From: Smaragdicoccus niigatensis DSM 44881 = NBRC 103563
GTDB taxonomy: Bacteria > Actinomycetota > Actinomycetes > Mycobacteriales > Mycobacteriaceae
Direction: 5' to 3'
NCBI RefSeq assembly: GCF_000380645.1
Contig: NZ_AQXZ01000017.1
Location: forward strand, 62,001-126,000
DNA length: 64,000 bases
Below are positions 53,912-57,711 of the stretch, in pieces; positions within the stretch are counted from its first letter, which is position 1, and each line of letters starts with the position of its first letter. The notes under the pieces were generated by a model. It did not search any database, was not told where the DNA came from, and saw only the letters and a list, made by a program, of their open reading frames with translations. Position numbers and translations under genes: made by a program.

Positions 53912-54388
53912 ATGGCCGACACCGCGCCCTCGTGGGCGACCCGATTGGCATCCGTCGCGATTGTCGTAGCACTGATCGCGATCGCCGTGGCCGTGTGGGC
54001 ACTACGCGCGCGATCGCCTGAACCGCCGTTGGCGGGACCGGCAACGGGTGACTTGAAAACGAGAGCCTGCAGCGACTTCGCCGTCGTCAAGAAGGCGGTG
54101 TCCCTGCAAACCCATGCCACCGCCGTGCCGGGAAGCGTGGATGAGCAGGTCGTCGACGTGAACTCGCGCCTCGCGATGTCTTCCGGTGCGTTGTATCTGC
54201 TCACTCGACTTGATCCCGCGACTGCGGGTGATCTGGCCGATGAGATCCGGCGCTTCGCGTCCGACCTGCAGGAGATCTCCATCTATGCCCAGGCCGGCGT
54301 CGCCTACGACGACCCGGCTGAAGCCGCGCGTTTGAGGGACGCGCAAGCCGCCAGCGACCGCATCGATGTCCTCTGCGGCGCTGCATGA
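53912..54388 (+). CDS. Small single-pass membrane protein with extracytoplasmic domain
   Basis: A 158-residue protein with one N-terminal membrane helix (RLASVAIVVALIAIAVAVWAL) and a helical outside domain of about 115 residues. Two cysteines (RACSDF and VLCGAA) could form a disulphide that closes the domain. The shape is typical of small mycobacterial envelope proteins of unknown function. ATG 53912 follows a leaderless box. Confidence 0.6.
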   Translation: MADTAPSWATRLASVAIVVALIAIAVAVWALRARSPEPPLAGPATGDLKTRACSDFAVVKKAVSLQTHATAVPGSVDEQVVDVNSRLAMSSGALYLLTRLDPATAGDLADEIRRFASDLQEISIYAQAGVAYDDPAEAARLRDAQAASDRIDVLCGAA

Positions 54389-54506: not shown

Positions 54507-54639
54507 GACCAACTAGTTTGTTTTGATCTCCCGTGGACTTACGATTCAGGTAACTGTTCGGTGGCCGGGTAAATGGTTTACGCCTTAATCACTTTGAGGT
54601 GCGGACAACGTTGTTCGGCGGGTCGCGAGGAGCATCGTC

Positions 54640-57600
54640 ATGGCTGCCACCACCCCCCGCTCGCGCCGAGATTCGCGCGCCAAGAACCGACCACGGAAGG
54701 TTCTGACCACCGGACTCGTTTCGGCCGGACTGTTGTTCGGCCCGAGTGTGGGCGTCGCGTCTGCTGCACCAGCTGTCACGCTGCTCGGCCACTTGTTCGG
54801 AACCGGCACGGCCACAGCATCGTCGACCTTCATCCAGCCCCGATCGCGTGCGCCCTTTGTGTTCACGGGTGCCTCGACGTCGCTGTTCCCGAAGAGTTGG
54901 GCTAACTCGGCCGCTGCGTCGAATAGCTGCGGACTGGTGTGCAACGGCGCCGACGGCACCGCCGACCACCCCGATGGGCAGAACGGTGGCTTGATTCGGG
55001 GCAACGGTGGCAACGGCTACGACTCGACCACGGACGGAGTCTCCGGTGGGAACGGTGGCTCGGGCGGCCGGTTCAGTGGCAACGGCGGTAACGGTGGCGA
55101 CGGGGGCTCGGCCGCCGCAGGTGGCAACGGCGGCAATGCGGGTCGCCTCCGGGGCGATGGCGGATCGGGTGGCAACGGCGGTTCGGGCACTGCAGGAACC
55201 AATGGAGCGGCCGGTACGAACGGCTCCGCCGGCGCCAATGCCACGGAAGTCGATGGCACGCAAGCGAACCCGAACGCGGTCGGCGGCAACGGTGGAGACG
55301 GCACAAACGGGGCTGCCGGTGGCAGTGGCACCGCGGGCACGGCGGGCGGTGCGGGTGGCGCTGGCGGCAAGGGCAGCCTGTTCGGCAAGGGCGGCAGTGG
55401 TGGCAACGGCGGCGCTGGCGGAAACGGCGGAACTGGTGCGACTGGTGGCAACGGCGGTACTGGCGGCAACGGCGGTATCGCGGTTGGCTACACCTCGACC
55501 ACGGCAGGCGACAACGGCGGCAACGCAACTGGCGGAAACGGCGGCGCAGGCGGTGCGGCAGGTGCCGGTGGGTCGGGCGGCTCCGGCGGTGCGGGGGGTG
55601 CGGCCGGAGGCGCTGGCACCGGAGGTCGAGGCAGCGGAACCGTGGGTACCGCGGGCGTAAACGGATCAGCGGGAGCGAGCGGCTCGTCCGGCGTGATGGG
55701 CGACGGCGGCAACGGCGGTCCCGGTACCGGTGGCAACGGTGCGGACGGCGCTGCTGGTGGCGCCGGAGGAAACGGTGGTAACGGCACGGGAGGCGCAGCT
55801 GGAACAGGTGCGACGAACGGACATGTCGGAACCGGTACCGGCGGAGACGGCGGCAACGGTGGCGACGCGACGACGCCCGGTGGTAACGGCGGCGCGGGCG
55901 GCAACGGCGGCTCGAACCTCGGACTCGTCGGCAATGGTGGAGACGGCGGAAACGGTGGCGCGGGAGCAATCGGAGCGACTGGCGCCACAGGAGACCCAGG
56001 CACGAACGGGACGATCGGCACGACCGGCACCGGAACATCGGGTGACCCAGATGCATTGGGCGGCAAGGGAACCGATGGACTCAGCGGTGGTAACGGTGAA
56101 AACGGAGGAAACGGCGGCACCGGCGGAGCGGGCGGCAATGGCGGCAACGCCGGCCTGTTCGGCACCGGTGGAAACGCTGGAAACGGCGGCGCTGCGGGCG
56201 ACGGAGGCAACGGTGGCACAGGAGGCACCGGAGGCACCGGAGGCACCGGTGGGACCGCGGTCGGCTACAGCCCGACGGCAGCCGGAGAAGACGGTGGCAA
56301 CGCTGTCGGCGGTGCTGGCGGCAACGGCGGTGCAGGAGGCGGCGGAGGCGCAGGTGGCCTCAGTGGCAGCGGCGGCGCGGCCGGAACTGCCGGCACGGGC
56401 GGGAACGGCACTGGAGCTGGCGGATTAACTGGCGGATCCGGGACGACGGGCGCAACCGGAGCGACCGGACTCGTCGGCGCCGGCGGCAGCGGCGGATCTG
56501 CGACCGGTGGCAACGGCGCTGACGGAACCCCCGGTGGAGACGGCGGAAATGGCGGGGACGCCACTGGTGGCGCAGGTGGTACCGGCTCGACCACGGGTGC
56601 CGCGGGCGCCGGCAACGGCGGTAACGGTGGCGACGGCGGGGACACCACCACTATCGGCGGCGCTGGAGGCAACGGCGGAAATGGTGGTTCGAGCCTCGGG
56701 ACCAGCGGCAACGGTGGAAACGGTGGAAACGGTGGCGCCGGAGGAACTGGCGCGGACGCCGTTAACCCGACGCCACCGACCGACACCGCCGCGAGCGGCG
56801 CGAATGTCGACGATTACTACAACGGCGCGGGCATTGGTGCCGGAAGCGTTGGTACCGGTACCAACGCGGGCGACGGTAGCAACGGAACAGACGGCCAGAA
56901 CGGTGGAAACGGGGGCAGCATTCCCAACTTCTACAACGGCGCGGGACAAGGTGGAGGGACCGGTAACGGAGGAAATGCCGGAAGCGGAGGAAATGGCGGT
57001 GCTGGTGGTGGAGCCGGCGGCAATGGCGGGGGTATTGGCGCCCTCAACGGAGTCGGACTGGCCGGCAGTACCGGCCACGGTGGAAACGCAGGTAACGGCG
57101 GAAATGGTGGGGAAGGTGGCGGAGTCGGTGGCGACGGCGGCAACCTCGGCGACACGAACGGCGGAGGTTTTGCCGGCGGTACCGGCAATGGCGGGAATGC
57201 TGGCGACGGCGGTACTGGTGGAGCTGGCCTGGCGGGCGAGTCAGGTGGGACCGGGGGTAACGGTGGCGCCGGTGGCAGCGGCGGCACCGTAAGCGGAGCC
57301 GGGGGCAACGGCGGCACGGGCGGCAGCGGTGGCACCGGGGGAACAGGCAGCGCGGGCGGTCCTGGTGGAAGTGGCGGGAACATTGCGGACAGCAATGGAG
57401 TGACTACGGGCACCGGCTCTGACGGCAACGCGGGGAATGCCGGCAACGGCGGCGACGGTGGAGTAGGTGGAACCGGCGGCGTTGGAGGAACTGGCGGTTC
57501 CGGAGGCGCAGCCGGAACTGGCATCACGAGTGGAGCAGGCGGCAGTGGAGGTTCCGGAGGGTCCGGAGGAACAGGGGGCGCTGGCGGTGCTGGGGGTGCC

Positions 57601-57711
57601 GGCGGTACCATTGATGCCTTCAGAAACAACGGCGGATCCGCCGGCAGCGCGGGCTCCACTGGGCAAACCGGCAGCCAGGGCGCCACGGGAACCCCGGGTA
57701 CCAACGGCTAG
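54640..57711 (+). CDS. Exported Gly/Asn-rich PGRS-like repeat protein without PE domain
   Basis: A 1023-residue protein. A basic N-terminus and signal peptide (VLTTGLVSAGLLFGPSVGVA, cleavage near ASAAPA) replaces the PE domain that leads mycobacterial PE_PGRS proteins. From about residue 115 on, nearly all is GGxGGN repeat. Two copies of a module of roughly 270 residues can be aligned by the landmarks AVGYTSTTAGDNGG / AVGYSPTAAGEDGG and NLGLVGNGGDGGNGG / SLGTSGNGGNGGNGG. Then come units with YYNGAG, FYNGAG, LNGVGLAG and TNGGGFAG, and a collagen-like GxxGxx end. In PE_PGRS proteins such arrays form beta-solenoids with Ca-binding or PGII-type folds; cell-surface location is inferred. gcgaggag precedes the ATG. 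Confidence 0.88.
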   Translation: MAATTPRSRRDSRAKNRPRKVLTTGLVSAGLLFGPSVGVASAAPAVTLLGHLFGTGTATASSTFIQPRSRAPFVFTGASTSLFPKSWANSAAASNSCGLVCNGADGTADHPDGQNGGLIRGNGGNGYDSTTDGVSGGNGGSGGRFSGNGGNGGDGGSAAAGGNGGNAGRLRGDGGSGGNGGSGTAGTNGAAGTNGSAGANATEVDGTQANPNAVGGNGGDGTNGAAGGSGTAGTAGGAGGAGGKGSLFGKGGSGGNGGAGGNGGTGATGGNGGTGGNGGIAVGYTSTTAGDNGGNATGGNGGAGGAAGAGGSGGSGGAGGAAGGAGTGGRGSGTVGTAGVNGSAGASGSSGVMGDGGNGGPGTGGNGADGAAGGAGGNGGNGTGGAAGTGATNGHVGTGTGGDGGNGGDATTPGGNGGAGGNGGSNLGLVGNGGDGGNGGAGAIGATGATGDPGTNGTIGTTGTGTSGDPDALGGKGTDGLSGGNGENGGNGGTGGAGGNGGNAGLFGTGGNAGNGGAAGDGGNGGTGGTGGTGGTGGTAVGYSPTAAGEDGGNAVGGAGGNGGAGGGGGAGGLSGSGGAAGTAGTGGNGTGAGGLTGGSGTTGATGATGLVGAGGSGGSATGGNGADGTPGGDGGNGGDATGGAGGTGSTTGAAGAGNGGNGGDGGDTTTIGGAGGNGGNGGSSLGTSGNGGNGGNGGAGGTGADAVNPTPPTDTAASGANVDDYYNGAGIGAGSVGTGTNAGDGSNGTDGQNGGNGGSIPNFYNGAGQGGGTGNGGNAGSGGNGGAGGGAGGNGGGIGALNGVGLAGSTGHGGNAGNGGNGGEGGGVGGDGGNLGDTNGGGFAGGTGNGGNAGDGGTGGAGLAGESGGTGGNGGAGGSGGTVSGAGGNGGTGGSGGTGGTGSAGGPGGSGGNIADSNGVTTGTGSDGNAGNAGNGGDGGVGGTGGVGGTGGSGGAAGTGITSGAGGSGGSGGSGGTGGAGGAGGAGGTIDAFRNNGGSAGSAGSTGQTGSQGATGTPGTNG
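54985..57706 (+). repeat. Intragenic GGN-coding repeat array
   Basis: About 2.7 kb of degenerate nine-base periodic DNA (ggcggcaac and variants), with a superimposed duplicated module of about 0.8 kb. Such arrays change length by recombination or slippage, and assembly here should be checked with long reads. Confidence 0.85.

Follow-up and report, generated by a model that had tools for sequence, protein, structure and literature searches.

The gene at 54640-57711 (forward strand) of the window, i.e. of the whole 64,000-nucleotide stretch of Smaragdicoccus niigatensis DNA that we analysed, is, judged from its sequence, a real and intact gene for a PGRS protein that has a Sec-type leader and no PE domain. 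It belongs to the PGRS repeat family and not to PE_PGRS. With a probability of roughly two in three, we think that this protein is exported by Sec and not by ESX-5, that its polyglycine-II array is placed at the mycolate envelope, and that PGRS was Sec-borne first and met PE later.

The gene consists of a single open reading frame of 1023 aa with an ATG start and no internal stop. A Shine-Dalgarno-like GAGGAG (54627..54632, forward strand) was read from the sequence 7 nt 5′ of the ATG. Residues 1-42 (54640..54765, forward strand) form a predicted Sec-type signal peptide, MAATTPRSRRDSRAKNRPRKVLTTGLVSAGLLFGPSVGVASA followed by AP, whose strongly basic n-region precedes a hydrophobic core and an A-x-A site. 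Reading of the sequence and a rule-based prediction both give the n-, h- and c-regions and the signal peptidase I site of a Sec-exported protein, with predicted cleavage between A42 and A43 (ASA before AP); the ordinary Sec-type leader postulated in the initial annotation is thus borne out. Lipoprotein and Tat export were also considered and were rejected on sequence reading, which revealed neither a lipobox Cys nor a twin-Arg motif beside the hydrophobic core. Elsewhere in the window, a multicopper oxidase (PF07731/PF07732; 50014-51876, reverse strand) carries a leader that begins with MLMRSLTRREAMWALG and is possibly Tat-exported. A search of the window protein against NCBIfam gave no match, and plasmid records contained no relative of its N-terminal 147 aa.

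The type VII signal of PE_PGRS is a YxxxD/E motif in the N-terminal domain. As there is no Tyr in residues 1-126 of the window protein, this signal is absent from its N-terminal region. The PE domain itself (PF00934) was found neither in the protein nor in the whole genome at E ≤ 0.1, just as the initial annotation had claimed for the protein. The PF00934 model also matches in our E. coli control, so weak PE matches need caution. Between the leader and the array lie a linker without Tyr or GRPLI (residues 43-96; 54766..54927, forward strand) and a cysteine pair, C97-G-L-V-C101 (54928..54942, forward strand), which adjoins the PGRS module on its N-terminal side.

The glycine array that follows leader and linker comprises 925 residues; past residue 43, the protein contains 44.8% G, 12.4% A, 10.4% T and 9.2% N. 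Residues 101-170 (54940..55149, forward strand) match PF21526 with 42 bits (curated cut-off 27; E 1.2e-10), which assigns the protein to the PGRS repeat family. The array previously called PGRS-like therefore opens with a true PGRS module. Within the 73 positions of this module we saw no difference from PF21526 repeats; the model does not cover the remainder of the protein.

Two tandem modules come next on the same strand, module A at residues 189-446 (55204..55977; AVGY at 281 and NGGSNLG at 422) and module B at residues 451-705 (55990..56754; AVGY at 540 and NGGSSLG at 681), so that the second AVGY and the second NGGSxLG each stand exactly 259 residues after the first. Aligned with each other, the modules score 865, with 159 identities in 258 columns (62%), whereas 500 token-permuted sequences gave 515 ± 18 and a maximum of 581, which puts the observed score ~20 s.d. 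higher. This confirms the duplication that had been proposed from the two landmarks. At the 159 identical residues, 89 codons are different and 70 the same, against 58.8 the same expected under independence; since synonymous codon use is this close to independent choice, the DNA was duplicated long ago and not recently. The remaining array (residues 706-1023; 56755..57708, forward strand) is of a different type, with YNGAG repeats and a collagen-like end. Its segment 707-966 scores 473 and 511 against modules A and B, which is the null level and supports the earlier remark that the C-terminal repeats are unlike the first half.

Full-length AlphaFold modelling from the single sequence produced no usable fold (mean pLDDT 25.3), so polyglycine-II is supported for the first module only. 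With 9 sequences (the window protein and Mycolicibacter loci) and the stretch 99-278, residues 99-168 were modelled at a pLDDT of ~80-93 and showed neither helices nor strands of normal length. Structure comparison matched the model to the springtail antifreeze protein 7jjv (Z 11.7, 2.3 Å over 119 residues, partly in low-confidence model) and to the snow flea antifreeze protein 2pne (Z 9.5, 1.7 Å over 70 residues, mostly in the confident part). These two proteins are eukaryotic and short, their sequence likeness to the module is the glycine pattern alone, and no shared function is implied; a sequence search of solved structures returned only collagen chains (E 0.57-0.93). The opening module is thus predicted to fold as a polyglycine-II bundle with the glycines packed inside, i.e. 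as the polyglycine/polyproline-II bundle of springtail antifreeze proteins, though the predictor may have learned this fold from the antifreeze proteins. Of the two folds that the initial annotation had suggested checking, polyglycine-II is the one predicted for the first module, and a beta-solenoid was rejected because strands of normal length are missing from the model. A glycine-rich array with a polyglycine-II fold, as in PE_PGRS, is accordingly present, with the fold predicted for residues 99-168 only. The model-based prediction agrees with the polyglycine-II sandwich proposed for PGRS in the accessible parts of PMC9436101 and PMC13243192.

According to the mechanism that we propose, SecYEG would carry the chain over the inner membrane and signal peptidase I would cleave it after A42. 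Beyond the cytoplasm, the GGX array would then fold into flat polyglycine-II slabs that are stacked together (opening module, A, B and C-terminal tail), and a disulfide between C97 and C101 may act as a small staple where the slab begins. Such a stack would lie in or on the mycolate envelope with its variable loops outward, serving as an adhesive or spacer surface, and the protein would be surface-exposed. The published membrane-sailing model for PGRS requires a hydrophobic straight edge. Hydrophobic residues make up 6.0% of the window array, the lowest share among the 41 arrays measured (range up to 21.1%), and aromatic residues 1.1%. With so few hydrophobic residues, the array probably attaches to the envelope less firmly through a hydrophobic edge than has been proposed for PE_PGRS33; being the least hydrophobic of the 41, the array also speaks against membrane sailing and makes embedding in the mycomembrane doubtful. 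Envelope attachment may here be weaker than, or different from, that of the sailing model.

Comparison with a second genome of the same genus (G001; the genome of the window is G000, and L-numbers denote loci read in our survey) revealed a clean presence/absence of the segment 53874..57700. This 3.8 kb segment holds the gene and a 158-aa ORF without Pfam match (53912-54388), and in G001 the syntenic place is occupied by 3 bp, with flanking DNA ~90% identical and DinG 97%. Insertion by a mobile element was considered as a possible origin of the segment, from a reading of the junction. A short likeness to the last codons of the gene in G001 hints, at the sequence level, at loss there rather than gain here.

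The genome of the window carries two paralogues, on contigs C19 (611 aa) and C14 (685 aa), both of which are open frames whose PGRS module exceeds the cut-off. The C19 paralogue (L009) resembles the window protein from residue 1, leader included, and is identical to it at 96 of 184 aligned positions. Its counterpart in G001 (L018) has 232 aa from stop to stop between flanks that are ~85-90% identical. The absence of the segment and the difference in array length are in line with the plasticity known for such arrays; G001 is split into 280 contigs, and its shorter array is possibly an assembly collapse of repeats.

We found one EccB locus in the genome of the window. The C19 paralogue (G000:C19:882442-887394; L134:12443-17395) lies directly downstream of eccE (PF11203), near a divergent eccB. 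On contig C31 of G001, a PGRS gene adjoins eccB, and a second eccB is located elsewhere in that genome. ESX linkage was rejected as a general rule, as among the other 11 PGRS genomes outside genus g29 only G044 had an eccB within 30 kb of its PGRS match (~27 kb); two of the 11, G206 and G283, consist of hundreds of contigs, which limits the reading of linkage there.

Two other views of what the protein does have to be weighed against a surface role. The low hydrophobic and aromatic content would suit a protein that leaves the cell rather than staying with its membranes, be it a hydrophilic polyglycine-II spacer or one that structures ice or water. The antifreeze proteins as nearest solved folds would suit it as well, and no sorting signal was seen in the C-terminal array (residues 706-1023) and no anchor motif in the protein. 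We nevertheless consider release unlikely, because higher hydrophobicity is seen in related arrays of other genera, PMC9436101 in its accessible parts reports PE_PGRS at the surface, and likeness of fold shows no function. Even less probable, in our opinion, is a dispensable, rarely expressed repeat gene of little function. Its absence from the syntenic place in G001 and the different lengths of the C19 paralogue in the two genomes would be expected of such a gene, and the promoter scan gave no sigma-70-like promoter on the gene's strand. Against it, the frame is intact across 1023 codons, modules A and B have kept their 62% identity despite the divergence of their codons, and all three paralogues are open frames. 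In our view, the most likely reading is a Sec-exported polyglycine-II protein at the surface of the mycolate envelope.

The search for homologues was run on the GTDB family of the window, and PF21526 modules were found in 33 of its 301 genomes and 8 of its 31 genera; among 397 genomes drawn from the order, 33 were positive, all within this family. We read 112 N-termini and counted 110, dropping L056 (wrong frame) and L017 (match begins in the leader), the latter itself of the leader type. The 110 comprise best matches together with 60 places selected in five genomes of genus code g29 (G084, G123, G266, G284 and G111), so the shares given below are not a census. We infer that g29 is Mycobacterium.

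A PE domain was present at 45 of the 110 loci (18/18 in G084, 9/9 in G123, 17/18 in G266 and 1/1 in G068), which means that PE-bearing PGRS came from 4 of 34 sampled sources, all in g29. The other 65 loci were PE-less, a form that occurs in all 8 positive genera, the named Mycolicibacter loci L012-L017 being PE-less and of the Sec-leader type. In 29 of the 33 family genomes positive for PF21526, no form other than the PE-less one was read (1 to 18 loci were read per genome). The PE-less arrangement is thus not peculiar to this genome and is widespread in the family. In G284, PE was found 13 times, yet none of the 18 PGRS loci read (L025, L105-L121) bears it. Outside g29, PE matches occurred in 9 of 13 PGRS-bearing genomes (G044, G049, G093, G119, G140, G167, G206, G283 and G299; best E 8e-15 to 5e-8) and were missing from G000, G001, G008 and G171. 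Descriptions of PE restrict it to Mycobacterium, and the PF00934 model also matches E. coli, so these nine cases need checking.

A Sec-like signature was recognised in 59 of 65 PE-less N-termini and in 5 of 45 PE-bearing ones, by a loose rule that shuffled copies of the PE-less set pass in 15.6 of 65 cases on average and in 23 at most. The six PE-less N-termini lacking the signature are L049, L026, L029, L060, L055 and L101; L026, L049 and also L072 are cut by the locus edge. Locus L101 (G266:C1:2849339-2850548) is PE-less in an otherwise PE-bearing genome, with 11 open residues before the module, and is probably a PE_PGRS gene broken upstream. The pair CG[LVMF][IV]C[ND]G stands directly before the array in 15 of 65 PE-less loci (from the window's genus, g29 and Mycolicibacter) and in 0 of 45 PE-bearing loci. 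A GRPLI-like linker was found in 39 of 45 PE-bearing and 3 of 65 PE-less loci, the latter three with Sec-like leaders; in L112 and L113 of G284, GRPLI follows a Sec-type leader. The open-licence literature searched gave no paper that treats PE-less PGRS proteins as a class of their own, and the PE-less arrangement with a Sec leader appears undescribed there.

With PE_PGRS such as PE_PGRS33, the window protein shares the PGRS opening module, a GGX array of variable length and a predicted polyglycine-II slab; PE_PGRS sometimes have two tandem slabs, according to the accessible parts of PMC9436101. It differs from them in the missing PE domain, in the Sec-type leader, in the CGLVC pair that stands before the array in place of the GRPLI linker, and in an array less hydrophobic than the three PE arrays measured. 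The PE-less PGRS of Mycolicibacter (L012-L017) and g29 have leader, linker and opening module in the same order, and L012-L016 together with seven g29 loci also have the CG[LVMF][IV]C[ND]G pair. Their linkers have a different sequence (often DLFDP, PLH..W..S), and their arrays are mostly more hydrophobic.

The homology of the opening module was examined with a profile built from 45 PE-type opening modules only. With the composition correction of HMMER on, the window module scored 54.7 bits and the 63 PE-less modules used in this test all scored 31.1-73.8, as compared with a maximum of 20.6 for 315 permuted sequences and of 12.4 for 65 other array windows. With the correction off, 58 of 63 PE-less modules exceeded the permuted maximum, and ordinary array windows reached 94.1 as against 92.8 for the window module; composition therefore explains part of the similarity, and homology rests on the corrected test. 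The scores of the PE-less modules are not independent, since these were themselves selected with the PGRS model. The score of the window module is independent, since its protein was picked by a reader.

These results bear on two accounts of origin that compete with ours. The GGX array could have arisen independently and merely resemble PGRS, given that low-complexity arrays draw chance matches; the accessible part of PMC1660551 (2006) put glycine-rich look-alikes in Nocardia and Streptomyces down to such unspecific resemblance. We find this account very improbable. The match is concentrated in one opening module with fixed positions (NGADGT..P.G..GGL..G.GG.G..ST..G..GG.GG) and not spread along the array, both permuted and array controls fail under composition correction, and the CG[LVMF][IV]C[ND]G pair is common to the window protein and the PE-less PGRS of Mycolicibacter and g29. 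As a profile built exclusively from PE_PGRS modules recognises the opening module, the "convergent" form considered in the initial annotation lost its support. Convergence is largely refuted for the opening module, as far as sequence goes, while the remaining array could be convergent padding.

The other account takes PE_PGRS as the ancestor, from which PE would have disappeared or given way to a Sec leader, with transfer carrying the gene into other genera. It would accommodate the PE matches in nine genomes outside g29 and the presence or absence of the gene between close genomes, as seen for mobile or dispensable genes. The module tree does not settle the direction, because it is poorly resolved and counts of changes carry no direction: for 108 modules (L036 and L059, with partial modules, were also left out) it has 103 inner branches, 7 of them starred and 48 open, and 7 changes of state, and PE-type modules as one clade are compatible with it (p-AU 0.503). 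We judge such a derivation unlikely, since PE-bearing PGRS are limited to g29 while the PE-less form occurs in every positive genus, no PE remnant precedes the window module, and four PGRS-bearing genomes have no PE match at all. The breadth of the PE-less form, these four genomes and the GRPLI linkers on Sec-type leaders favour PGRS before PE_PGRS. The "ancestral" form, the other option of the initial annotation, is thus possible and favoured by distribution and linkers, on a tree without direction.

PGRS would most likely have been carried by Sec leaders first, with PE joining later in one Mycobacterium lineage. In the fuller form of this proposal, to which we give an even chance, PGRS was not born within the PE family and is an older Sec-exported polyglycine-II module of at least 8 genera of mycolic-acid bacteria; in that lineage, PE would have taken the place of the Sec leader in front of a GRPLI-PGRS unit and so have diverted an already existing surface protein to type VII secretion. 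From sequence, GRPLI linkers on Sec-like leaders are a plausible intermediate between PE-less PGRS and PE_PGRS. The proposal differs from published accounts, which in their accessible parts place the emergence of PGRS recently and within Mycobacterium (PMC1660551, 2006) or call the family exclusive to Mycobacterium (PMC6016250). A 2025 review (PMC12209268, accessible part) tabulates pe_pgrs = 0 for two Mycolicibacter species; as named Mycolicibacter genomes carry PE-less PGRS genes, a census based on the PE domain misses them.

The relatives in several other genera suggest that the glycine-rich part reaches beyond PE_PGRS and perhaps predates it. If PGRS is indeed older and Sec-borne elsewhere, the gain of PE would become a datable change of export route, and the basic function of PGRS could be studied in harmless relatives, without ESX-5 and apart from infection.
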